A program made the position numbers and the translations under genes. 64,000 nucleotides of DNA from Flavihumibacter cheonanensis. Its GTDB lineage: Bacteria > Bacteroidota > Bacteroidia > Chitinophagales > Chitinophagaceae. The stretch lies in assembly GCF_022352215.1 (NCBI RefSeq), contig NZ_JAKRWF010000004.1, positions 310,001 through 374,000 on the forward strand, read 5' to 3'. Below the pieces are notes generated by a model. The model did not search any database. It worked only from the letters and a program-made list of their open reading frames with translations, and had not been told where the DNA came from. Shown here piece by piece: positions 10,865 to 29,833 of the stretch (within the stretch, counting starts at the first letter, position 1; the number at the start of each line of letters is the position of its first letter).

Positions 10865-11696
10865 CCGACAAATAGGCATCGATATTGGCGGTACCGGTAT
10901 GAAAGCTGGTATCGTGGAGAATGGCCGCCTGCTGCAAAAGGTCGAAGAGAAAGTGCTGGCGAATGGAAGTGCTGATGAAGTAGTAGAGCAAGTGAAAGGA
11001 TTAATTCTTCGGTTAGGCCTAAACGATATAACAGGTATCGGTATTGGAATTCCGGGACTGGTAAACCCTGTTACTGGCGTGGTGTACGATGTGATGAATA
11101 TCCCGGCCTGGACAGAACTCGATCTTAAAGGCATTCTGGAAAAAGAGTTGGGAAATCCGGTTGCCCTGAACAACGATGCCAACTGTTTTGCTGCCGCGGC
11201 TTTTACCCTGCGACAATTGCGGGAGCGTACCTCTCTCCTGGGGGTTACCCTTGGTACCGGGATGGGCACCGGTATTATTTGGGAAGGTAAACTGATCTCA
11301 GGATTACATGGTGGGGCTGGAGAATTCGGACTGATTGAATACCGCGAGCAGAACATTGAATACTATGCCAGCGGCCGTTTTTTTGAAAATGTATACGGAC
11401 TCAATGGCGTTGAGGTTTACCAGAAAGCCATGCAGGGAGATCAGCGATCATTGGAGCTGTATGCCGAACTTGGTTTTCATTTTGGCAACGCGGTTAAAAC
11501 CCTGCTCTACGCACTCGATATAAATTATATTATTTTGGGAGGGTCGGTAAGTGCTGCCTGGCCCTTGTTCCGGGAAGCTACCCTGCAACAGGTGGGCGAT
11601 TTTGCCTATCGCCAGGCCCGTGAAAGCCTGGTGATTGAAACTTTGCAGGAGATGGATGCCGGTATCATTGGCGCAGCCGCCCTGGTTACTTTATAA
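10857..11696 (+). CDS. ROK family sugar kinase without the zinc motif
   Basis: The start is set at the ATG at 10857 (279 residues), where the ATP-binding phosphate-1 motif begins (GIDIGGTGMKAGIV); an upstream in-frame ATG (10803) adds residues unlike the family. NNDANC is the catalytic aspartate region and GTGMGTGII the phosphate-2 loop. The usual ROK zinc site (GExGH followed by CxCGxxGCxE) is missing: here the sequence runs GGAGEFGLIEYREQNIEYYA with no cysteine. The enzyme probably phosphorylates a hexose or N-acetyl amino sugar, feeding the coupled NagB-like deaminase. The missing zinc site may mean altered specificity. Confidence 0.8.
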   Translation: MRNRQIGIDIGGTGMKAGIVENGRLLQKVEEKVLANGSADEVVEQVKGLILRLGLNDITGIGIGIPGLVNPVTGVVYDVMNIPAWTELDLKGILEKELGNPVALNNDANCFAAAAFTLRQLRERTSLLGVTLGTGMGTGIIWEGKLISGLHGGAGEFGLIEYREQNIEYYASGRFFENVYGLNGVEVYQKAMQGDQRSLELYAELGFHFGNAVKTLLYALDINYIILGGSVSAAWPLFREATLQQVGDFAYRQARESLVIETLQEMDAGIIGAAALVTL

Positions 11697-11707
11697 CATA
11701 CACACAC

Positions 11708-13948
11708 ATGCGAAAATTAGTATTAGTCCTGCTTTGTCTTCCCTTGGGGTTATTGGCACAGCAACCAGCTGAATTGGCAAGATGGGAAAAACAGGCGGAG
11801 AACATCACCATCATCCGCGATAAGATGGGCATTCCGCATATCTATGGCAAGACAGATGCCGATGCAGTTTTCGGATTGCTCTATGTCCAATGCGAAGACG
11901 ATTTTGCCCGGGTGGAAATGAATTATATTGAAAAGCTGGGGAGATTGTCAGAGGTGCAGGGGGAGAGTAAGCTCTATGATGATCTCCTGATCCGACTGGT
12001 GATTGATGCCGAAGCCGCGCAACGTGATTATGCGAAAGCTCCGGCCTGGTTGAAAAAACTCTGTGTCGCTTTTGCGGATGGGATCAATTATTATCTCTAC
12101 AAAAATCCCCAGGTAAAAACAGCTCTCCTAAACCGCTTTGAACCCTGGTTCCCCATGTTATGGACAGATGGTAGTATTGGTGCGATCACTACGGCTGATA
12201 TCACCATGAAAGAGTTGGCTGGTTTTTACGGTGATGCATCGCCGTTAGTCGCAAGAAACATAAATGGTACTTCTCTTTCTGCGCAAGGAATCAGAGAAGG
12301 GTTGAGCACTGAAGTCGAACCAATAGAAGAGCCTCTTCCCACCGGCTCCAATGGATTTGCTATTGCTCCTGCCAAATCCGCCAGTGGCAAAGCAATGCTC
12401 TATATCAATCCCCATGTGAGTTTTTATTTTCGTCCCGAAGTGCATATGGTTTCAGAAGAAGGCCTGAATGCCTATGGGGCGGTTACCTGGGGACAGTTTT
12501 TCATCTACCAGGGATTCAATGAATACGCGGGCTGGATGCACACATCCTGTTATGTGGATGCTGCGGATTCCTATATAGAAAAAGTGGAGAAGCGTCCCTA
12601 TGGGTATGCGTATCGCTATGAAGGTAAACTTCGTCCCTTTAGAACCAAACTGATTACGATTCGCTATAAAACAGCTACGGGAACAGCAGAAAAAAACATC
12701 ACAGCCTACTTCACCCATCACGGTCCGATTATGGCGAAGCGCAACAACCAGCTCCTGAGCATGAAAGCGGATAACCGCCTGCTGGAGGGCGTAATTCAAT
12801 GTTGGCAACGAACCAAAGTAAAGGGACTCAACGATTTCAAGAAAACACTGGATCTGAAAGGCAATCTTTCCAATAGTACGGTCTATGCGGATAGAGATGG
12901 CAATATCGCTTACTGGCATGGAAACCGGATTCCGAAAAGAGATCCTTCTATCGACTGGACGCAACCTGTTGATGGAACCACCAAAGCAACCGAGTGGAAG
13001 GGGTATCATGCTATCAATGAAACCGTTCATATGGTGAACCCCTCCAATGGATGGCTGCAACATTGCAACAGCACCGCATTCCAGATTGCAGGTACCAATA
13101 GTCCGGATCCTGCAATGTTCCCTGCCTACATGGCACCTGATGGTGATAATTTTCGTGGAGTCAATGCCGTTAGGGTGCTTTCCAATCTTGCCAAACTAGA
13201 TCTAGACGCACTTATCAAAGCCGGTTATGATCCGCGTCTCGCTGCTTTTGAGGAATTGATTCCCGAGTTGGTGAAAGCATTTGACACTCAAGTGAAACCT
13301 GCTGATACCTTATATGCCTGGCTGGCCGGACCAATAGCCGTCCTCCGCAACTGGAATTACCAGGTGGATACGGCATCCATTGCAACTACGCTGGCTGTGG
13401 AATGGGGACAAAGATTATTGCCTTCCATCATGCGCGCAGGTCCCCAGGATGGCAAACCCCTGGACGCGGTGATAAAGACCCGTGCCTATATTTCGGGTAC
13501 ACCTCAGCGTGAGATGCTGCAGGCACTGTACCTGACCCTGCAGGATCTCACGCAGCGCTATGGAAAATGGCAGCTCGCCTGGGGTGGTATCAATCGCTTC
13601 CAGCGTATTTCGCCGGCAATTGATTTGCAGTTTGATGATAACAAAACCAGTTTCCCGGTTGCCTTTGCTTCCGGAACCTGGGGCATGTTGCCTTCTTATA
13701 ATAGCCGGGTTTTCCCGGGCACCCGGAACCGGTATGGGGTCCATGGGAACAGTTTCATTTGTGCTGTGGAGTTTGGTGACAAAGTGCGCGCTAAAGCCCT
13801 GCTCGCAGGTGGACAGAGTGGTGATCCGGCTTCTCCCCATTTCAACGACCAGGTAGAGGCTTACAGCAAGGGGCAGTTCCGGGAAGTACTCTTCTACAAA
13901 GATGATGTGCTGCGGAATGCGGAACGTACTTACAAGCCCGGGAGATAG
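11708..13948 (+). CDS. Penicillin acylase family Ntn hydrolase, exported
   Basis: 746 residues with a signal peptide (LVLVLLCLPLGLLAQ). The layout is that of penicillin acylase/acyl-homoserine lactone acylase precursors: an alpha region with RDKMGIPHIYG, a linker, then TGSNGFAIAP, where Ser214 would become the N-terminal nucleophile after self-cleavage, and a large beta region. Such enzymes cut amides between an acyl group and an amine in the periplasm; substrates include beta-lactams, acyl-homoserine lactones and other amides. It follows the ROK kinase gene by 11 bases, so it is probably part of the amino-sugar operon, and an N-acylated amino compound is conceivable. Substrate unproven. Confidence 0.85.
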   Translation: MRKLVLVLLCLPLGLLAQQPAELARWEKQAENITIIRDKMGIPHIYGKTDADAVFGLLYVQCEDDFARVEMNYIEKLGRLSEVQGESKLYDDLLIRLVIDAEAAQRDYAKAPAWLKKLCVAFADGINYYLYKNPQVKTALLNRFEPWFPMLWTDGSIGAITTADITMKELAGFYGDASPLVARNINGTSLSAQGIREGLSTEVEPIEEPLPTGSNGFAIAPAKSASGKAMLYINPHVSFYFRPEVHMVSEEGLNAYGAVTWGQFFIYQGFNEYAGWMHTSCYVDAADSYIEKVEKRPYGYAYRYEGKLRPFRTKLITIRYKTATGTAEKNITAYFTHHGPIMAKRNNQLLSMKADNRLLEGVIQCWQRTKVKGLNDFKKTLDLKGNLSNSTVYADRDGNIAYWHGNRIPKRDPSIDWTQPVDGTTKATEWKGYHAINETVHMVNPSNGWLQHCNSTAFQIAGTNSPDPAMFPAYMAPDGDNFRGVNAVRVLSNLAKLDLDALIKAGYDPRLAAFEELIPELVKAFDTQVKPADTLYAWLAGPIAVLRNWNYQVDTASIATTLAVEWGQRLLPSIMRAGPQDGKPLDAVIKTRAYISGTPQREMLQALYLTLQDLTQRYGKWQLAWGGINRFQRISPAIDLQFDDNKTSFPVAFASGTWGMLPSYNSRVFPGTRNRYGVHGNSFICAVEFGDKVRAKALLAGGQSGDPASPHFNDQVEAYSKGQFREVLFYKDDVLRNAERTYKPGR

Positions 13949-21527: not shown

Positions 21528-21589
21528 TTGGCAAAGATATTGGTTACATTTATCAACTTTGTGGCAACGAAGTAGAGGGACCCAAGATT

Positions 21590-22522
21590 ATGTATCGAAT
21601 ACTATTCATTTTACTACTGGTGGGGTACGGACTGGCTTGTAACAGATCCAATGACACCCTGCCGAAAATCAGGCTCACCTATAGTGATTCCCTGTACTTC
21701 AAAGTACCTGGTACGGCGCAATCGACAGATCCGGTTACCAGACCTGCGGAAGCCGGTTATTTTAAAGCCATTCCCTTGGGATTGGCAATAGATAGCCTGA
21801 CCGGTCGCATTAATATCACCGAAAGTGAAGGTGGTATCCGGTATAAAATATTCTATATCAGCGACGACCAGGAAACCGTGTTGGATAGCGCCAAACTGGT
21901 AGTTTCGGGTATTGATTACCGGGATAGTATTTACAATCTGTCTACAGCCGGCCTCTTATTTGCAACACCTATTTACAATGCAGATCCTACTGCTGTTTTG
22001 CCCTGTGCGGATGATGATGACGATGACGATGATGATGATCCCACTAATCCGGATGATGACGACGATTGTGAGTTTGATGAAAAAGATACCGATGATGATG
22101 GTGATGATGATCTGCCTGGGGTTAATGGAGATGGCTGTAAGGTAGATGTGGACAATGGTGTGATCGACCTGGCAGGCAGTTTTGCTGATGGGTTCCTGGG
22201 TAATAACCCGACCAATGGAACCACCCGCGATTTTGAATTTTTCTATCGTATAACGGATGCCAGTAACCGAAACCTGCAAGCTATTACCGTACGCTTTTAT
22301 TATTTCAATACAGCTGCTGATATTCCTGCGAGTCTGAGGGCTGAACTGGGTAACAGGGATGCACAGGCGCGGGATGTATTGATGCGGAATCGGGATCGCT
22401 TTATTCAGGCTTCCCTGATGGCCACTACCGGTTTTAACAGGAGTGAAGACCTGATGCGCCTGGCAAGGGATATTACAAGTCGCCCTAAAAGACCCCCCAT
22501 CATTATCCTGGTAGGCCGCTAA
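21590..22522 (+). CDS. Acidic lipoprotein with poly-aspartate tract
   Basis: 310 residues with a lipoprotein signal (LLLVGYGLAC, Cys17). Residues 30-130 are beta-rich. The middle (about 141-185) is extremely acidic, with ten aspartates in a row, then DDDDDCEFDEKDTDDDGDDD and NGDGCKVDVDNG, resembling calcium-binding DxDxDG loops. The C-terminal part has strands and a helix (RAELGNRDAQARDVLMRNRD). No family was recognised. It is followed 37 bases later by the TPR-CHAT gene on the same strand and is probably co-transcribed with it, which makes it a candidate partner or substrate of the protease. This last point is inference. Confidence 0.6.
   Translation: MYRILFILLLVGYGLACNRSNDTLPKIRLTYSDSLYFKVPGTAQSTDPVTRPAEAGYFKAIPLGLAIDSLTGRINITESEGGIRYKIFYISDDQETVLDSAKLVVSGIDYRDSIYNLSTAGLLFATPIYNADPTAVLPCADDDDDDDDDDPTNPDDDDDCEFDEKDTDDDGDDDLPGVNGDGCKVDVDNGVIDLAGSFADGFLGNNPTNGTTRDFEFFYRITDASNRNLQAITVRFYYFNTAADIPASLRAELGNRDAQARDVLMRNRDRFIQASLMATTGFNRSEDLMRLARDITSRPKRPPIIILVGR
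22010..22039 (+). repeat. (GAY)10 microsatellite inside the acidic lipoprotein gene
   Basis: Ten consecutive aspartate codons, mostly GAT with GAC at units 4 and 6. Such a trinucleotide tract is prone to length change by slippage without breaking the frame. More GAY codons follow at 22052-22067 and 22085-22111. Confidence 0.85.
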
Positions 22523-22559
22523 GCCGGGAGATTTTGTAGTTTCGGGACTCCTAAGAAAC

Positions 22560-25316
22560 ATGCCAAGAAGTTTCCAGTTGTTTGGAGTCCTGTTGTTGTT
22601 GCTGCTGATCTGGAAGGGATTTTCCCAGTCGAATCAGCAGGCAGCTGAGCCTGCTTACTGGTACCAGCAAGCCGAAAAAAACTATGCTGCGGAAAATCCT
22701 ACCGGAACTACAGATAGTATTGCATTAGCTGCGTATGAAAAGGCCATTCAGTTGTTTTTACCAACTGCACCACGCAATGCTAAAGCCGGTGATGCTATGA
22801 TCAAGCGAGGGAATATCTTCCAGGGGCAGCGTGCATTTGCCAAAGCGCAGCAAGAATATCATCGGGCTATGGACTGGTTTCGTAGCTATGGAGCTGATAG
22901 CCTGTTGTTTTACCAGGCCAGTTTGCACCTGGGTTCCAATTTCTACTATACCTATGGTATTGACAGTGCCCGGTATTACCTGGAGCAGGCAGCTCGATTG
23001 GCTTTGAATCATACTGACTACCCCGACCAGGAAGTGCTCTACAACTCCCTGGGTGCTTTGTATTTTCAGAGTTCCAATTTTCTGCAGGCAGCCAATTATT
23101 TTGAGAAAGCCAGGATGTTATTGGATCCGGCTGCTCCTGAATACCGGGAAACCTTTGATGGTTTCTCCAACAATATCGCTTTCTGCGAGTCGGCATTGGG
23201 AAATTATGAAGAAGCACTTTCCATCTACCGGACCCTGTTGAAAGATGCCTATATTAATAACCGGGTTATTCAAAATATCGGGCACCTCTATTATGAGAAA
23301 AATGAACCGGATAGCGCGCTTAGGTATTTTCAACAAGTGGTTCCCAATGCCACCAATGCAACGGTTCGGATGTACCAGGAGATGGCAAGAATATACCTGG
23401 ACAAAAACCAACCTGATCAGAGTCGGGGTTTACTTGATAAAGCGGATAGCCTAAACCGTTTGCTGGGTGAAAGTCCCAGGGAGAAAGCAGTCAACCTGCT
23501 GCTCAGAAGCCGGCTTTTGGCAAGCAGCCAAAATTATCCGGAGGCACTGCAGTACCTTGAACAAGCAGCCGCCGGTATCAATGAAGACCTGGCTCCCTTA
23601 GTTTTGTTTGAGATCCATGAACAAAAAAGCGGCATTTACCTGTTGCGGCATAAACAGACAAATGCTACCGCTGACCTGAAAGCAGGTGCCCTTGCCTTAC
23701 TGAAAGCTATTCGCCTTGCTTCCTATATCCGAAGCAACTATGATAATGATGAAGCGAAATTGTTTTTTAACCGAAGCAGGGAAGCGATTTACTGGAAAGC
23801 GGCTGAAGCTGTTTACAACTGGTATGCACAAACGAAAGAGCAGGAAGCGCTGGAATCTTTTTTCGAACTGGAAGAAGCCTACAAAGGATCAGTATTAAAT
23901 GACCAGTTACGCCAGGCAAGGGAACGCTCTGCAATAAATCCCGGGCAGTCGCCATTGCTGGCAAAGGAATTTGAACTGAGGCAAACCCTTGCTTATTATT
24001 CTTCTCTGCTCAACACACTAACAGATGCAGAGGAAAAGGCCCGGATCGAAGGAGAGCTGATTTCTACCAAAGTTGCATTATCCCGTGTGCAGCAGGACTT
24101 GAATGCAGGTTTCAATGAAAGTAGCCTGGAGGATTCGGTATATGGCCTATCTGTTTTTCAACAGCGATTAGGAGGAAAGCAGGCAGTACTTAGTTTTCTG
24201 CAAACGGATGCTGCTTTATTCCGCTTCTTGATAAGACCTGGCACTATACAATTGGATCGGATACCGGTAACAGTAGCGCTAAGAGAGAGAGTTCAACATT
24301 TCATCAGTTCCCTGCATACCCAGCAGGAAGGGCTTCGTTACCAGGGAAACCAGGATGGTTATTATTTATACCAGGTATTACTGCAACCCCTGGAAGGGGA
24401 GCTGAAAAAACTCGAGTCCTGTACTATTCTGGTGGATGGCTACCTGCACCTCGTACCATTTGAAGCCTTGCCAGTAACGCAGGCAACGAACCGCTATTTG
24501 TTGCAAGACCTTACCATCAGTTATCATCTTTCCTTTGACCAGGTATATCAACAGCGTAAACCTGCAATAGCGAATGGGAAGGATAGTTCCTGGATGAGTT
24601 TTGCACCCTACGCGGAGGAGGATCCCTTAATCAGAAAAACCGGGCTGGCGGTGCTGCCTTTTTCTACCAGTGAAACCGGTAAGTCGGGCAGTGAATTGGC
24701 AATTGTAAAATCCGAAGCAACTAAAGCAGCTTTTCTAAGTTTGGGAGGCAGTAAAAAGATTCTGCATATAGCTAGTCATGCTGCTGCCAACAGGGAAGGC
24801 AATGGAGATTCCTGGATCAAGTTTTATCCGGAACAACCAGATTCTGTGCTGGGGTACACCCTGTTTCTACCTGAAATCTATCCGTTACCACTCAAAAACA
24901 CAGAGCTGGTCATTCTGAGTGCCTGTGAATCGGCCAGTGGCATTGCCGCTTCCGGCGAAGGTTTGCTGAGTTTATCGAGGGCTTTTTTATATGCTGGTGC
25001 AAACGGTGTGATTGCTTCTCTATGGAAATCGGAGGACCTGGTAACGGCCTACCTTATCCGAAAATTCAGGGAAAGCATCAGTTCAGGACTACCAGTGGAG
25101 AAGGCCCTGCAACAAGCAAAATTAAATTTGTTATCCGATCCTGAAATACCGGTTCAGTTTAAACAACCCAATTATTGGGCACACCTGGTTTATATTGGTA
25201 ATTGCTCTCCTGGTAAGTCAACCGGCAACTTTATCTGGTGGATCTTAGCTGGATCAGGAGCAGTTGTGTTAACAGTTTATTTTTTACGTAAAAGCGCTTC
25301 CAGTTCTTCTAACTGA
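22560..25316 (+). CDS. TPR-CHAT domain protease, exported and membrane-anchored
   Basis: 918 residues. A signal-like N-terminus (LLLLLLIWKGFSQ) is followed by repeated TPR-type helix pairs over about residues 25-420 (for example YNSLGALYFQSSNFLQAANYF, shown shortened: LGALYFQSSNFLQAANYF), a helical linker, and a CHAT domain in the last 300 residues. The caspase-type dyad is visible: His740 in LHIASHA and Cys789 in VILSACES, followed by GEGLLSLSRAFLYAGA. A transmembrane helix at 891-909 and a short basic/serine tail end the protein. With this layout the TPR and CHAT parts lie outside the cytoplasm. Its last 40 bases overlap the 3' end of the sigma-linked TPR gene on the other strand. Confidence 0.85.
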   Translation: MPRSFQLFGVLLLLLLIWKGFSQSNQQAAEPAYWYQQAEKNYAAENPTGTTDSIALAAYEKAIQLFLPTAPRNAKAGDAMIKRGNIFQGQRAFAKAQQEYHRAMDWFRSYGADSLLFYQASLHLGSNFYYTYGIDSARYYLEQAARLALNHTDYPDQEVLYNSLGALYFQSSNFLQAANYFEKARMLLDPAAPEYRETFDGFSNNIAFCESALGNYEEALSIYRTLLKDAYINNRVIQNIGHLYYEKNEPDSALRYFQQVVPNATNATVRMYQEMARIYLDKNQPDQSRGLLDKADSLNRLLGESPREKAVNLLLRSRLLASSQNYPEALQYLEQAAAGINEDLAPLVLFEIHEQKSGIYLLRHKQTNATADLKAGALALLKAIRLASYIRSNYDNDEAKLFFNRSREAIYWKAAEAVYNWYAQTKEQEALESFFELEEAYKGSVLNDQLRQARERSAINPGQSPLLAKEFELRQTLAYYSSLLNTLTDAEEKARIEGELISTKVALSRVQQDLNAGFNESSLEDSVYGLSVFQQRLGGKQAVLSFLQTDAALFRFLIRPGTIQLDRIPVTVALRERVQHFISSLHTQQEGLRYQGNQDGYYLYQVLLQPLEGELKKLESCTILVDGYLHLVPFEALPVTQATNRYLLQDLTISYHLSFDQVYQQRKPAIANGKDSSWMSFAPYAEEDPLIRKTGLAVLPFSTSETGKSGSELAIVKSEATKAAFLSLGGSKKILHIASHAAANREGNGDSWIKFYPEQPDSVLGYTLFLPEIYPLPLKNTELVILSACESASGIAASGEGLLSLSRAFLYAGANGVIASLWKSEDLVTAYLIRKFRESISSGLPVEKALQQAKLNLLSDPEIPVQFKQPNYWAHLVYIGNCSPGKSTGNFIWWILAGSGAVVLTVYFLRKSASSSSN

Positions 25317-26029
25317 TCTGCCTGCACTTTTTCAAAGTACAAGTGTTGCGGATCCTGTTTGATGGCCCTGAACAATTCCAAAGCTTTGTCAGTAGCTCCT
25401 GCTTTCAGGTAGGCGAGTGCTCCGTAAAACTGGGCTTCATCGCGGAAAGCAGGTGATGCTGCATTATCCAGGATGCGTTCAAAACTCAAAGTAGCAGCCG
25501 TCCAATTTTTCATTTCCATATAACTGAGACCAGCATAAAAATGGGAACTGTTATCAACTGGTTTGGTAGCTTCATAGACAGTAACTAATTCCTGGTAAGC
25601 GCCTTTTTTGTATAAGGCAGTGAGGTCAGCTGCTTTTTCCTGTGACCGGAAAACCGGTGCCTGGTAAGGCTGATATACCTCTGCATAGAGCTGGTCTGCA
25701 TTCATTGTATTTCCGGACTGCCAGAAATAGATACCCACCGCCAGCAAGAGGGAAGCTGCCATACCAATCCATTTGAGCCGGCCCATCCAGATCAGTTTCC
25801 TGTCGGCATGAATGGAGTTGTTTTCATTTAGAAACTGCTCGTGCAAGATTCCTACCTGTGCAATGATAGGGGCCCTTTCAAGAAAGGACTGGGCAGCGCG
25901 GTGGAGTTGGATCTCTTTTTCCAGTTCCTGCTCATTTAATGAGGGTGCCTGCTTTTGCAGCCAGTCGCGTGTGATGGTGCCTGTTGTATACTCATCTAGC
26001 AAATGATCTATGTGTAAATCAGGATTCAT
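25277..26029 (-). CDS. Membrane TPR protein coupled to ECF sigma factor (putative anti-sigma factor)
   Basis: 250 residues. The N-terminal 80 residues are helical and soluble, one transmembrane helix spans about 86-103 after a basic stretch (DRKLIWMGRLKW), and the C-terminal 140 residues contain TPR-like repeats (HFYAGLSYMEMKNWTAATL, then FYGALAYLKAGATDKALEL). The positive charges before the helix suggest the N-terminus is in the cytoplasm and the TPRs outside. The start overlaps the sigma gene stop by 11 bases, so the two are translated together. Position and topology fit an anti-sigma factor, though no zinc-finger motif (HxxxCxxC) is visible. The 3' end overlaps the TPR-CHAT gene. Confidence 0.65.
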   Translation of the reverse strand: MNPDLHIDHLLDEYTTGTITRDWLQKQAPSLNEQELEKEIQLHRAAQSFLERAPIIAQVGILHEQFLNENNSIHADRKLIWMGRLKWIGMAASLLLAVGIYFWQSGNTMNADQLYAEVYQPYQAPVFRSQEKAADLTALYKKGAYQELVTVYEATKPVDNSSHFYAGLSYMEMKNWTAATLSFERILDNAASPAFRDEAQFYGALAYLKAGATDKALELFRAIKQDPQHLYFEKVQADQLEELEALLRKK

Positions 26030-26645
26030 GGGCGTCGAGGTTTTTAAGTTGTTGAAGAATGGTTGGGTTTTTTGAGAGCATTTCTTTCAATGCTTTCATG
26101 CATTTGGATTTTTTATTTCGTAAAGCCTGCTCACTTGCAAAGGATACTTTATCCAATAACTCTCGCATCGACAGTTTTTCATAATAGAAACCCATCAGGA
26201 TGGCTTTACATACTGAACCGATCGAATTAAAGAGCTGTAGCCAGGTTTTCTGCAATTCCTTATTGAAGATCCTTGCTTCGGTTGACTCAATCGTAGGGGA
26301 AGCCTGCTGAAATACCTGTTGCCGCCTGTTCCTGCGTTCGCTGCTCCTGATTTCTTCCAGCCAGAGGTTCTTGGCTATTCCGAAGAGGTAGGATTTGATA
26401 CTGCTATCACCTTTGAATTTACCTGCCCTTGCCGCCTCAATAAATACCAGGATGGATTCCTGGAAAATATCTGCCGCTTCCTCCTGTGCTGCTCCTTTGG
26501 TTCTTAAAAAAGCGGTCAGCATTTCAAAATAGCTGTTATACAGTTCTTTCACCGGCCGGTTGATATCAGCCTGCTGTAAGGCGATCACCAGTTCCATATC
26601 TGGTGTTCGCTGTTCATTTCCTCCCGATTTATACGCTATCTGCAT
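26019..26645 (-). CDS. RNA polymerase sigma factor, ECF type
   Basis: 208 residues with region 2 (about 20-95: ELYNSYFEMLTAFLRTKG, AADIFQESILVFIE, SIKSYLFGIAKNLWLEEIR) and region 4 (about 130-195: ICKAILMGFYY-like VCKAILMGFYYEKLSMREL, then a helix-turn-helix with ALRNKKSKCMKAL). Region 3 is absent, as in ECF sigma factors. An in-frame ATG at residue 17 is an alternative start. The gene overlaps the membrane TPR gene by 11 bases and is convergent with the TPR-CHAT gene beyond it. Target promoters are unknown. Confidence 0.85.
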   Translation of the reverse strand: MQIAYKSGGNEQRTPDMELVIALQQADINRPVKELYNSYFEMLTAFLRTKGAAQEEAADIFQESILVFIEAARAGKFKGDSSIKSYLFGIAKNLWLEEIRSSERRNRRQQVFQQASPTIESTEARIFNKELQKTWLQLFNSIGSVCKAILMGFYYEKLSMRELLDKVSFASEQALRNKKSKCMKALKEMLSKNPTILQQLKNLDAHES

Positions 26646-26719: not shown

Positions 26720-26803
26720 GGGTTCTTTATAAGGATATAGGAGTGTGGACTGTTTGATATTGGTTGTTGCAGCCTTGGAAAATGTAACCAGTTTTGGAAA
26801 AAA

Positions 26804-27484
26804 TTATTGCCGGATAATCCTGCCATCCTCCATTTCAATGATCCGGTTGGTTCGTTCCGCAAATTCCGGGTCATGGGTTACGATGAGCAGGCTCTGGTTG
26901 AATTCCTGGGCCAGCTGCTGAAAAGTGGAGAATACGATTTCGCTGTTCCGCTTGTCCAGGTTGCCGGTGGGCTCATCTCCCATAATGATAGCAGGCTCAT
27001 TGATCATGGCACGCGCAATGGCAACCCGTTGTTTTTCACCTCCTGATAATTGCCGGGGGTTCTTTTCTGCCAGTTTGCTGATATCAAGCGTTTTTAGTAA
27101 GAAATGTGCCCGGTCTTTTAATGCTGCTTCCGGCTTTTTGGCCAGCTTCCTGGCGGGCAGTAAAATATTCTCCAACACCGTGAATTCATTGAGCAGGTAA
27201 TGGAACTGGAATACAAATCCGATTTTTTCATTGCGCACCGCCGCCAGTTCTTTTTCTTTCAGTCCTGTCATTTTTTGTTCGTCGACATACAATTCTCCCT
27301 GGTAATCTGTATCCATGGTAGAGAGGATATAGAGCAGGGTGGATTTACCGCAACCCGATTTGCCAATCACCGATACAAATTCCCCCGCCTTTACCTGGAA
27401 ATTGATGTCTTTAAGTACATCAAATTTTACCGGGTCGTAAAACTGTTTGTAAATATGTTTTGCTTCTAGTATGACGGAGTTCAT
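26804..27484 (-). CDS. ABC transporter ATP-binding protein (MacB/LolD type)
   Basis: 226 residues. Walker A is [16 protein letters not shown], the signature [15 protein letters not shown], Walker [13 protein letters not shown], and the switch histidine is in [11 protein letters not shown]. This set and the length match the LolD/MacB/FtsE group, which powers mechanotransmission-type exporters. The gene is the last of three (adaptor, permease, ATPase) and starts 1 base after the permease stop. The complex probably exports a lipid, peptide or small molecule from the inner membrane; the cargo is unknown. Confidence 0.9.
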
Positions 27485-27485
27485 A

Positions 27486-28745
27486 TTATTTGCCTCTGAT
27501 GATTACAACCGGATCCACTCTGCTGGCTTTTTTCGCCGGGAAGTATCCTGCCAGATAAGTAGTGATCAGTGAAAATGCACTGCCTATGAAATAATAGACC
27601 GGATTATAATTGATGGGATAGGTTGTTACGGTTGGTAATGCTGCTGTATTGAAAGGAATCTGATCGATCAATGAGGATAATAAATAGCCCATGAGCAAGC
27701 CCGTTAGTCCGCCAAAAATGCCTATTCCAAGTGCAATCATAATAAAGATCCGGTTCACATCCTTTCCGGAAAAACCGGTTGCTTTCAGTATGGCAATGGA
27801 GTCCATCTTTTCATAGATCATCATGTTCAGGATATTGTAAATACCAAACCCGGCTACCACCAATAGCGTGATGCCTACTGCATACGAGATGATATTCCGA
27901 ACAGAGGTTCCTGTTTCAAATTGCGAATTGGCGGTTTGAATATCTTCCGCGTCGATCTCAAATACTTTATTGAATTCTTTCGCCATCTTTGGCGCCTGGT
28001 TGATATCGTTCAGCTTCACCTGGATATCTGTTACATAGCTATTGGGTTTGCCCATGATTTTCTGAACCGTAGTCAGGGATGCAAAACTTTGGGTTTTATC
28101 CAGCTCCTGTAAACCGGATTGAAAATGCCCTACTACTTTTAAGCGGAACTGTTCTCCTGATGAGGTTGTTAACTGCACCACATCTCCGATATCGGCCAAT
28201 AGCTTATCAGCCAGTCCTTTCCCCAGGATAATGCTGTTTGCCACATTTTTGAGATCGGATGCCTGTCCTTTTACAACATAATCGGTAAAGAAAAACAGGC
28301 GGCTTTCTGCTTCCACATCTACTCCATATACAACACCTGTTATTTCGAGGTTACCTTCGTTGAAGAACACCTGGCTGGTTATTTTGGGGGCAATGCCGAG
28401 CACGCGCGGGTCTTGTGTTATGCGTTGCATGATGGCTCCGCTGTTATAAATTTCCTGGCGACTGTTTCCTGACTTTACAGAATGTATGATGTGGTAATAC
28501 GACTGATATTCTGCTGCCTTCTGCACAGGTTGGATGCTATCCGGCCGAATCTCATTAAACAGGCGGACATGCGGTGTTCTGTTGATAACAAGTCCGTCCA
28601 ATAATTTATTCAGTCCCGTCATAAAACTCAGCAGCGTGATGAACATCGTGATGCTAAAGGTTACGCCAATGGCAGCCACCAGGGTTTGTTTCCATCGCGC
28701 CATCAGCAATGCATAGGCAATTTTTAGTATGAGCGGCTTACTCAT
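27486..28745 (-). CDS. ABC transporter permease, FtsX/MacB type
   Basis: 419 residues with one N-terminal transmembrane helix (about 21-44), a large periplasmic domain (about 50-280) and three C-terminal helices (about 285-310, 330-358, 385-405), the four-helix layout of the MacB/LolC/FtsX superfamily. GFGIYNILNMMIYEKMDSIA is the conserved stretch after the second helix. The gene overlaps the adaptor gene by 4 bases (ATGA junction) and is followed by its ATPase 1 base later. It forms the membrane part of the exporter. Confidence 0.88.
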   Translation of the reverse strand: MSKPLILKIAYALLMARWKQTLVAAIGVTFSITMFITLLSFMTGLNKLLDGLVINRTPHVRLFNEIRPDSIQPVQKAAEYQSYYHIIHSVKSGNSRQEIYNSGAIMQRITQDPRVLGIAPKITSQVFFNEGNLEITGVVYGVDVEAESRLFFFTDYVVKGQASDLKNVANSIILGKGLADKLLADIGDVVQLTTSSGEQFRLKVVGHFQSGLQELDKTQSFASLTTVQKIMGKPNSYVTDIQVKLNDINQAPKMAKEFNKVFEIDAEDIQTANSQFETGTSVRNIISYAVGITLLVVAGFGIYNILNMMIYEKMDSIAILKATGFSGKDVNRIFIMIALGIGIFGGLTGLLMGYLLSSLIDQIPFNTAALPTVTTYPINYNPVYYFIGSAFSLITTYLAGYFPAKKASRVDPVVIIRGK

Positions 28746-29833
28746 TGTAGGGGATCAACCAGTTTATCAGATGCGGTAATGCCTTCCAGTATTTCAACTT
28801 TCTTATAATCTTTAAGTCCGGTTACTACTTTTCTTTTTTCTTTGTTTTCAAGTAACACAAAGGAATCTTGCACCAGGTAGTTCCTTGGTATGGTCAGGGT
28901 CTTTGCTTTGGTTTGAATTACAATATTCGCTTCAGCTGACAGGTTGGGATACAGTTTCTCGGGTGCTTTTTCAAATGCGGCTTCCACGAGGAAACTCCGG
29001 GTTCTTTCATCCATAATGGGATCAATTCTCGTAAGGCTTGCTTCAAATACTTCTCCTTTGTAACTGTCCAGTGTTACAATTATTTTTTGACCGGTTTTGA
29101 TTTTGGCAATATCATATTCATCCACCAGCAATTCGATTATGAAATTGTCTGCATCTCCCATTGTGGCGATGGCTTGTTGCGGATTGACAGTTTCTCCTTT
29201 TTCTTTCAGCAGTTTATAAACTTTACCATCCGACTCACTTTTGATGATATAATCATTTTGCTGGGTGCTGGTGATCTGTAATTGTTTTCTTGCCTGTTGC
29301 GCATTGAATCTTATCTGCCTTTCCAGTTCATCGTAACGGCGCCGGGTGGATTCTACATTGCTGGCAGCATTTTCCATGGCAAGTTCCCGCTGCTCCAGTT
29401 CATTCCGGGTGCCGATTCCCTGGTTCCATAATTCCTGCTGGCGTTTGTAAAGAGAAGAATCCGTTTTGAATTTACTGATAGCAAAATCAAGAGAAGCTTT
29501 CAGCTCTTTTAACCGGTTGCGATTGTTCTCCTCTGCTGAATAGTTGGCAGCCAACTGGGCGTTTTCTCTGTTTAGTCGAACCAGGTCATTGTTGATTTTA
29601 TAAATGGGACTGCCTTTCTTCACCAGGTCTCCTTCATTTACGAGCACTTCTTCGATGATGCCGCTAACGGTGGAGTACAACTGGTATTGGTTGCGGGTTT
29701 TTATGGTGCCAGAGGCATATACCGATTCAGTTATGCCTTCCTCTGTCGGCTGAATCAGGTTTTCCTGATTGGAGCAACTGGAAAATACTGGTAATAACAG
29801 GAGTAGAAATGCCGGAAAAGGAGTTAGTTTCAT
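28742..29833 (-). CDS. Periplasmic adaptor lipoprotein (HlyD/MacA family)
   Basis: 363 residues with a lipoprotein signal (LLLLPVFSSC, Cys20). The domain order of membrane fusion proteins is visible: a first half-lipoyl motif (SGIIEEVLVNEGDLVKKGSP), a long coiled-coil hairpin (about 90-195), the second half-lipoyl part (IIKSESDGKVYKLLKEKGE), and beta-barrel and membrane-proximal domains. It should link the permease to an outer membrane channel, but no TolC homologue is in the operon. First gene of the exporter operon, divergent from the PD40 gene with a 46-base shared upstream region. Confidence 0.88.
   Translation of the reverse strand: MKLTPFPAFLLLLLPVFSSCSNQENLIQPTEEGITESVYASGTIKTRNQYQLYSTVSGIIEEVLVNEGDLVKKGSPIYKINNDLVRLNRENAQLAANYSAEENNRNRLKELKASLDFAISKFKTDSSLYKRQQELWNQGIGTRNELEQRELAMENAASNVESTRRRYDELERQIRFNAQQARKQLQITSTQQNDYIIKSESDGKVYKLLKEKGETVNPQQAIATMGDADNFIIELLVDEYDIAKIKTGQKIIVTLDSYKGEVFEASLTRIDPIMDERTRSFLVEAAFEKAPEKLYPNLSAEANIVIQTKAKTLTIPRNYLVQDSFVLLENKEKRKVVTGLKDYKKVEILEGITASDKLVDPLQ

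Follow-up and report, generated by a model that had tools for sequence, protein, structure and literature searches.

Two convergent operons in the window, a 64,000-nucleotide stretch of Flavihumibacter cheonanensis contig NZ_JAKRWF010000004.1 (positions 310,001 to 374,000), likely encode an envelope-signal circuit in which a periplasmic CHAT domain acts as a site-1 protease, cutting a membrane anti-sigma factor at R128 and freeing an extracytoplasmic function (ECF) sigma factor. The argument draws on the genes present, their linkage across genomes, topology signals, conservation of the candidate site, covariation between the two proteins, and a motif common to both operons, all of it read from sequence. 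The genes and residues involved, in window positions and with gene starts taken from the longest frame, are as follows (TPR, tetratricopeptide repeat).

21590 to 22522, + strand: lipoprotein gene, with a lipobox at C17 (identified by eye), an Ig-like stretch, an Asp-rich linker, and a conserved C-terminal RPPxIxI tail.
22560 to 25316, + strand: TPR-CHAT protease gene (918 amino acids), with a signal-like N terminus, a TPR solenoid, a caspase-like CHAT domain (residues 603 to 881), and a C-terminal membrane helix.
24672 to 24674, + strand: codon of E705, a CHAT residue covarying with the Arg or Met of the partner.
24777 to 24779, + strand: codon of H740, a catalytic dyad position.
24924 to 24926, + strand: codon of C789, the other catalytic dyad position.
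25035 to 25037, + strand: codon of D826, the other acidic residue that covaries, first in helix 826 to 841.
25277 to 26029, − strand: gene for a TPR membrane protein, the probable anti-sigma factor, with an N-terminal helical domain (residues 1 to 76), one membrane helix, a periplasmic linker, and a TPR domain.
25643 to 25648, − strand: codons of R128 and S129, the candidate scissile bond, from site conservation in alignments.
26019 to 26645, − strand: ECF sigma factor gene, from its score on the ECF model.

Together the two operons would form a self-contained circuit. The cytoplasmic N terminus of the anti-sigma factor would hold the sigma factor, with the TPR domain in the periplasm, and the TPR-CHAT protein would be anchored in the same inner membrane with its protease facing the periplasm. 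On a signal, CHAT would cut the anti-sigma linker some 25 residues away from the membrane, on the C-terminal side of R128 (or of a Met in sister lineages). The remaining stub would pass to a general site-2 protease, and the genome does encode an M50 peptidase; this step would free the sigma factor. The freed sigma factor would then activate two operons via a common promoter, the one that encodes it and the lipoprotein-CHAT one, which would make the switch self-reinforcing. The lipoprotein, with its conserved tail, is perhaps a sensor, or a ligand of the CHAT TPR region.

An original prediction from this DNA had described a TPR-CHAT protein with an intact His740/Cys789 dyad, a signal-like N terminus, and a C-terminal membrane helix, next to an ECF sigma gene coupled to the gene for a one-helix TPR membrane protein, and each of these parts held. 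The CHAT domain matched PF12770 (E value, 2.3e-44; 152.4 bits against a cutoff of 24), and this match, with H740 in HIASHA and C789 in SACES, places the protein among the CHAT peptidases. Hydropathy detected a hydrophobic N terminus (residues 5 to 21) and a C-terminal stretch (891 to 907), and the AlphaFold2 model placed helices at 3 to 22 and 889 to 915. The sigma factor scored 54.2 bits on TIGR02937, over the ECF cutoff of 42.9. Its gene overlaps that of the TPR membrane protein by 11 bases, and the model of the latter (mean predicted local distance difference test [pLDDT], 89) has one membrane helix, at residues 85 to 107. The predicted 40-base overlap between the 3' ends of the CHAT and TPR genes was borne out by the coordinates, and a Pfam search found TPRs in both TPR proteins of the locus. 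The lipoprotein gene directly upstream of CHAT is a member of the unit that the original prediction missed.

Relatives were collected in three sets. The first, or discovery, set contained 99 genomes including the window's own, with TPR-protein matches in 38 and CHAT matches in 47; mapping 120 regions around CHAT places (part of all places) with custom profiles yielded 126 CHAT genes, including that of the window. A scan of named genomes kept the best 80 of 357 relatives, equal to 79 loci of which 69 lay outside the first set; the nearest named CHAT relative was that of F. fluminis (92% identity). A class-wide draw of 197 genomes supplied a further 60 regions, in which the same module was found in other families and 27 TPR proteins had a CHAT gene in the same stretch.

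The linker of the TPR membrane protein contains a candidate cut site. Between the membrane helix and the TPR domain, alignments revealed a near-invariant Arg (R128, followed by S129, in the window) or, in other lineages, a Met, at a median of 25 residues past the helix. In the discovery set (n = 46), this residue was Arg in 32 proteins, Met in 12, and a gap in 2, and both proteins with gaps (L072 and L111) pair with CHATs that lack export signals. All 58 partners in the held-out named set had Arg (56 by column, 2 by eye). When all sets were placed in one alignment, Arg or Met occupied the column in 127 of 136 CHAT-linked proteins versus 0 of 18 whose genome had no CHAT match, or 126 of 136 versus 1 of 18 when the column was relaxed by ±3; here "no CHAT match" means none at E values up to 1e-10 or 1e-3, depending on the set, and one such genome (G095) is 89% complete. 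Among the 18 CHAT-less rows, two (L308 and L310) have no adjoining sigma gene in their stretch, and four (L316, L318, L023, and L030) are longer proteins. In 124 of 127 cases the Arg or Met was followed by Gly, Ser, Asp, Asn, or Ala, and in the model the site lies in a coil (residues 119 to 133; pLDDT there, about 80). One family, f65, is, at the level of its alignments, a natural experiment on the candidate cut site following CHAT. Its CHAT-linked proteins have Arg or Met in 7 of 9 cases and Val in 2, and most of its 12 CHAT-less proteins retain the Met-type, DPGLP-like frame but lack the Met itself.

The residue in the linker also tracks a residue in the protease. When CHAT columns in the discovery set were ranked by their power to separate proteins with Arg partners from those with Met partners, D826 and E705 came out on top; Glu705 was present in 31 of the 32 CHATs with Arg partners and in none of the 13 with Met partners. 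In the held-out class-wide set, Glu705 was found in 21 of 21 Arg-partnered CHATs versus 0 of 12 with Met, Leu, or Lys partners (one of the 12 being a gap); of 379 CHAT columns tested there, 705 ranked first and D826 fourth. Glu705 was present in 68 of 69 held-out named CHATs. It is probably the older state, because it is common in CHATs for which no TPR partner was visible (unanchored, 40 of 55; anchored, 12 of 24). On a tree, built without 12 near-duplicate or long rows, all but 5 of the held-out named rows, and three trait columns, partner type switches 8 times (8 to 9 in bootstraps), with 4 switches forced by supported branches, and independent pairs mostly gave 4 in the same direction and 0 in the opposite direction. 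Both types can occur in one genome, as in G008 (L069, Met; L070 and L071, Arg) and G014 (L079, Met; L080, Arg). E705 is a candidate protease-pocket residue matched to the candidate cut-site residue. That E705 and D826 form a caspase S1 pair, as in MALT1 and caspase-1, is kept as a lead only. Absence of the linker site where CHAT is absent, together with covariation with column 705, supports the proposal, made in the original prediction, that CHAT is a site-1 protease triggering sigma release, and R128 is the candidate scissile residue of that likely circuit.

Catalytic residues and topology were checked in the relatives. The His/Cys dyad was kept in every partnered CHAT of the discovery set (Arg-partnered, 32 of 32; Met-partnered, 13 of 13), in every held-out named CHAT (69 of 69), and in 35 of 36 class-wide CHATs, the exception (L293) being an aligned stretch that stops short of the Cys; dyad loss in homologs, which would have spoken against the earlier proposal, was looked for and the dyad was intact in nearly every partnered CHAT. 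Among window-type CHATs longer than 850 amino acids, a C-terminal hydrophobic stretch was present in 72 of 75, and Lys and Arg were richer after it than before it in 68 of 72; in the TPR proteins, Lys and Arg were richer before the membrane helix than after it in 61 of 64. Because of this charge distribution around their membrane helices, the signals agree that the CHAT domain and the TPR domain of the membrane protein both lie in the periplasm, consistent with the earlier proposal that they share one side of the membrane. One 1,360-amino-acid CHAT-like protein (L157) has Pro and Ala at the His and Cys positions and is likely an inactive CHAT. Seven very long CHAT proteins (L068, L081, L086, L089, L091, L109, and L124; 1,750 to 1,819 amino acids) lack a signal or C-terminal helix by the plain hydropathy rule used to call export signals throughout, and none has a sigma gene within its stretch.

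The TPR membrane protein is probably an anti-sigma factor with a cytoplasmic N terminus. Its gene is coupled to an ECF gene, and it has one membrane helix and a predicted cytoplasmic N terminus, as membrane anti-sigma factors do. Anti-sigma domains were detected at the N termini of family members (n = 51; E values up to 0.5), with zf-HC2 in 26 (best E value, 0.0016) and RseA_N in 8 (best E value, 0.00039). Foldseek with the TPR protein model returned no match under an E value of 0.001, and among the matches listed, all look like TPR proteins. For the site-2 step, the genome has one M50 peptidase match (PF02163; 1.6e-53), which is a weak test because the family was also matched in all 14 control genomes.

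A promoter-like motif precedes both operons of the window, with identical spacing from GGTTACA to CAAC.

21542 to 21568, + strand: GGTTACA-N16-CAAC, 48 bases upstream of the lipoprotein-CHAT genes.
26763 to 26789, − strand: GGTTACA-N16-CAAC, 144 bases upstream of the sigma ATG used here.

Across loci, GGTTACA was found upstream of sigma genes in 50 of 62 cases and of lipoprotein genes in 38 of 70, versus 40 of 582 control regions (other genes in the same loci). A strict pattern, GGTTACATTTN{12,14}CAAC, occurs twice in the 4.84-Mb genome, both times before these operons, with 1 occurrence of a reversed control pattern; because those same two window sites were the source of the strict pattern, its uniqueness is the one informative feature. 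By itself, GGTTACA has 13 occurrences in the window, with a shuffle mean of 6.7. Because the motif is common to both operons and its strict form is unique to them, the sigma factor probably drives both.

The origin of the strict pattern and the frequency of its core count against the circuit, as do several other observations. Of the 18 CHAT-less linker sequences, 12 belong to the single family f65, and where CHAT occurs only elsewhere in the genome, Arg or Met was found in 14 of 15 proteins of the class set but in 0 of 5 in f65, these five rows having been separated after their sequences had been seen. Two CHATs with Arg partners have Gly or Ser at 705 (L188 and L138), and three with Val partners (L288, L329, and L334) keep Glu705. 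The sign test on independent pairs was not significant (median P = 0.125), because 4 pairs cannot reach significance, and firm support exists for only 4 switches. In the Pfam search, the TPR protein of the window had no anti-sigma domain match at E values up to 1. Three named loci (L197, L252, and L255) have no TPR gene with 4 to 6 further genes visible. In the class-wide draw, the TPR profile matched 181 of 197 genomes, often partially or weakly, versus 65 for CHAT (E values up to 1e-10), and the TPR family is therefore wider than the CHAT-sigma module. Finally, in a study of the type III-E CRISPR substrate Csx30, deletion of M427 stops cutting and no single alanine change does (PMC10028731), so a CHAT protease need not depend on P1. 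As a separate observation on the Val-partnered proteins, in L329 and L334 (genomes G291 and G296) the CHAT gene lies 5 to 6 kb from the TPR gene with Val, and their pairing is uncertain.

The motif common to both operons would also fit a circuit in which CHAT is an output, with the sigma factor freed in some other way, switching on the lipoprotein-CHAT operon, and CHAT cutting other envelope or surface proteins. We consider this unlikely, as it leaves unexplained why a linker residue tracks both the presence of CHAT and CHAT residue 705. There is also a slim chance that the Arg or Met is a docking site and that CHAT and the anti-sigma factor form a sensing complex without proteolysis: both partners carry TPR domains, and conservation alone cannot separate docking from cutting. 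Against this, a scissile bond typically looks like what is found here, an exposed coil in which a small residue comes after the Arg or Met, and the dyad is intact in nearly every partnered CHAT examined.

The lipoprotein gene raises a third alternative, that it encodes the main substrate of CHAT. It is adjacent to and co-directional with CHAT in window-type loci, and it precedes CHAT in 72 of 79 named loci of this type. In the relatives set, a lipoprotein gene is directly upstream in 17 of 126 CHAT genes, and many sigma-linked CHATs have no adjoining lipoprotein. Pro is a poor P1' residue, and the only invariant Arg among 14 aligned lipoproteins, R301, is followed by Pro. The lipoprotein is therefore disfavored as main substrate, a role we consider very improbable. 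The C-terminal tail resembles a peptide made for binding: 70 of 71 relatives have RP[PA] among their final 16 residues, and most have RPP followed by hydrophobic residues. The lipoprotein may serve as a ligand of the CHAT TPR region or as a brake on it. The Asp run of the linker, possibly metal binding, is missing in the more distant of the 14 aligned relatives.

Gene linkage also supports the circuit as proposed, with CHAT acting on the anti-sigma factor: the conserved co-occurrence sought by the original prediction was found in all three sets. Within three genes of CHAT, an ECF sigma gene was present for 45 of 54 anchored CHATs (those with a C-terminal helix) versus 12 of 36 unanchored ones (Fisher P = 1.9e-6), with contig-end genes that had no visible sigma gene set aside (9 anchored, 20 unanchored), CHAT genes under 400 amino acids dropped, and L087 dropped due to overlap with L088; counting contig-end cases as unlinked gave 45 of 63 and 12 of 56. 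By distance from CHAT, 1 to 6 genes away, sigma genes occupied 8 of 180, 35 of 179, 15 of 172, 2 of 128, 2 of 80, and 0 of 43 places, and the window genome as a whole has 35 ECF matches over the cutoff in 4.84 Mb. The TPR protein was present in 58 of the 69 held-out named loci; of the 11 without it, 7 end within two genes after CHAT, and in one (L232) the TPR gene is in two pieces. Module layouts in relatives are convergent, as in the window, co-directional (sigma-TPR-CHAT), or divergent, across many families. A second convergent unit of CHAT, TPR membrane protein, and sigma genes exists in the window genome (L062; C164, positions 108782 to 121621); it is Arg type (TVRGE) and lacks a lipoprotein, and its sigma factor scores 32.5 bits, below the ECF cutoff. 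Recurrence of the layout in different genera and families, and in this second copy, makes it more than chance. Genes of all three kinds (TPR, ECF, and CHAT) abound in Bacteroidota, yet linkage in three layouts and many families, far above ECF density, makes it highly implausible that they are neighbors by chance or shared ancestry with no joint function.

Other genes accompany some loci. An extra gene of 236 to 322 amino acids, on the sigma strand, lies between the TPR and CHAT genes in 25 of 79 named loci (for example, L195, beside 11680 to 12444); 24 of the 25 form one BLAST group, and 14 have a lipobox by a crude pattern. In the window, adjoining the sigma gene on the same strand, are genes that by their sequence encode an ABC transporter together with a protein of membrane-fusion-like type (26804 to 29833), and genes of equal size occupy this position beside the sigma gene in L065 and L071. 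One Chitinophagaceae-like unit (L259) is on a contig filed under Beijerinckiaceae, perhaps a binning mix-up.

Type III-E CRISPR systems are the obvious point of comparison. The TPR-CHAT protein scored 22.5 bits on the type III-E Csx29 model, against a cutoff of 300, and a profile search of the whole genome found no RAMP-family match. A type III-E origin is rejected on these grounds, in agreement with the prediction of a CRISPR-independent version. The accompanying statement that the window has no CRISPR or gRAMP gene stands for RAMP-family genes, genome wide, and for the lipoprotein, CHAT, TPR, and sigma proteins, none of which had a Cas match over the cutoff in a scan that covered these four. 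PADLOC gave no match at E values up to 1 for the CHAT, lipoprotein, and TPR proteins, and its weak NsnC match to the sigma factor (E value, 0.011) was disregarded. By structure, the best Foldseek matches of the TPR-CHAT model by E value were DdvA (first; TM-score, 0.26), Csx29, and human separase (about 0.28). Csx29 structures were among the top matches, with TM-scores by query of 0.32 to 0.43, and also matched the CHAT-only profile, which was used for the PDB search because a full-length query was swamped by TPR proteins.

Craspase (Csx29-Csx30, with CASP-sigma/RpoE) has a TPR-CHAT protein that carries a His/Cys dyad, as in the window, and that acts on a sigma factor inhibitor, as proposed for the window. 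Craspase is RNA guided, bound to gRAMP/Cas7-11, and by inference cytoplasmic, whereas the window CHAT would be exported and membrane anchored. Csx30 is cut by Csx29 between residues 427 and 429 (PMC10028731) and, in another system, after L407 (PMC9729208); the probable inhibitor in the window is a TPR membrane protein with a predicted P1 of Arg instead of Met or Leu. Separase cuts after Arg via D2151, and the counterpart of this residue is Lys in one Csx29 studied (PMC9729208). In our own reading of the alignment, that counterpart in Csx29 aligns to CHAT position 830, one helix turn past D826, and Csx29 has a gap at position 705.

In the RseA-DegS-RseP switch, a membrane anti-sigma factor is cut first by a periplasmic site-1 protease and then by a site-2 peptidase. 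The window reading is similar, with RseA_N in some of the TPR family, and would place a caspase-like CHAT where DegS stands and a TPR domain on the anti-sigma factor. CHAT genes also lie near ECF genes in ECF54, for which proteolytic control has been proposed; its model member, from Geodermatophilus, is proposed to need no anti-sigma factor, and CHAT appears there among several kinds of peptidase (PMC8999054). Among the matches listed, the open literature contained no report of CHAT with an ECF/anti-sigma pair in Bacteroidota. In Bacteroidetes, a recognized class I anti-sigma domain reportedly adjoins 6% of ECF sigma factors versus 32% over all phyla, and control by other means was suspected (PMC7406223).

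The circuit would be a candidate answer for the control of some Bacteroidetes ECF sigma factors, with a named bond. If true, CHAT proteases would have a part in sigma control that is free of CRISPR, and the circuit would offer a possible background for the sigma branch of Craspase and supply natural protease-substrate pairs with matched Arg or Met specificity. More tentatively, there may be a Bacteroidota class of ECF circuits with periplasmic CHAT site-1 proteases, in which the cut residue (Arg, or Met/Leu) and the pocket (Glu705, or a nonacidic residue) change together and insulate circuits within one cell, and of which the type III-E protease-sigma module would be a cytoplasmic offshoot of an older, CRISPR-free switch; we regard this as possible, with the odds leaning somewhat the other way.

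Together with Craspase, the closest known relative is DdvA, the transmembrane anti-sigma factor of the ECF sigma factor DdvS in Myxococcus xanthus. It was the best PDB match of the CHAT-only profile (8rot and 8rw5), under the chain name CHAT domain-containing protein, and it suggests that a CHAT domain and ECF control through a transmembrane anti-sigma factor have been combined before. Judging from the PDB titles and the chain name, CHAT and anti-sigma factor seem to be one fused protein in DdvA; the window has separate genes for the two (22560 to 25316 and 25277 to 26029) and a candidate cut site in one of the proteins. New relative to DdvA would be separate CHAT and anti-sigma proteins that carry matched cut-site and candidate pocket residues.

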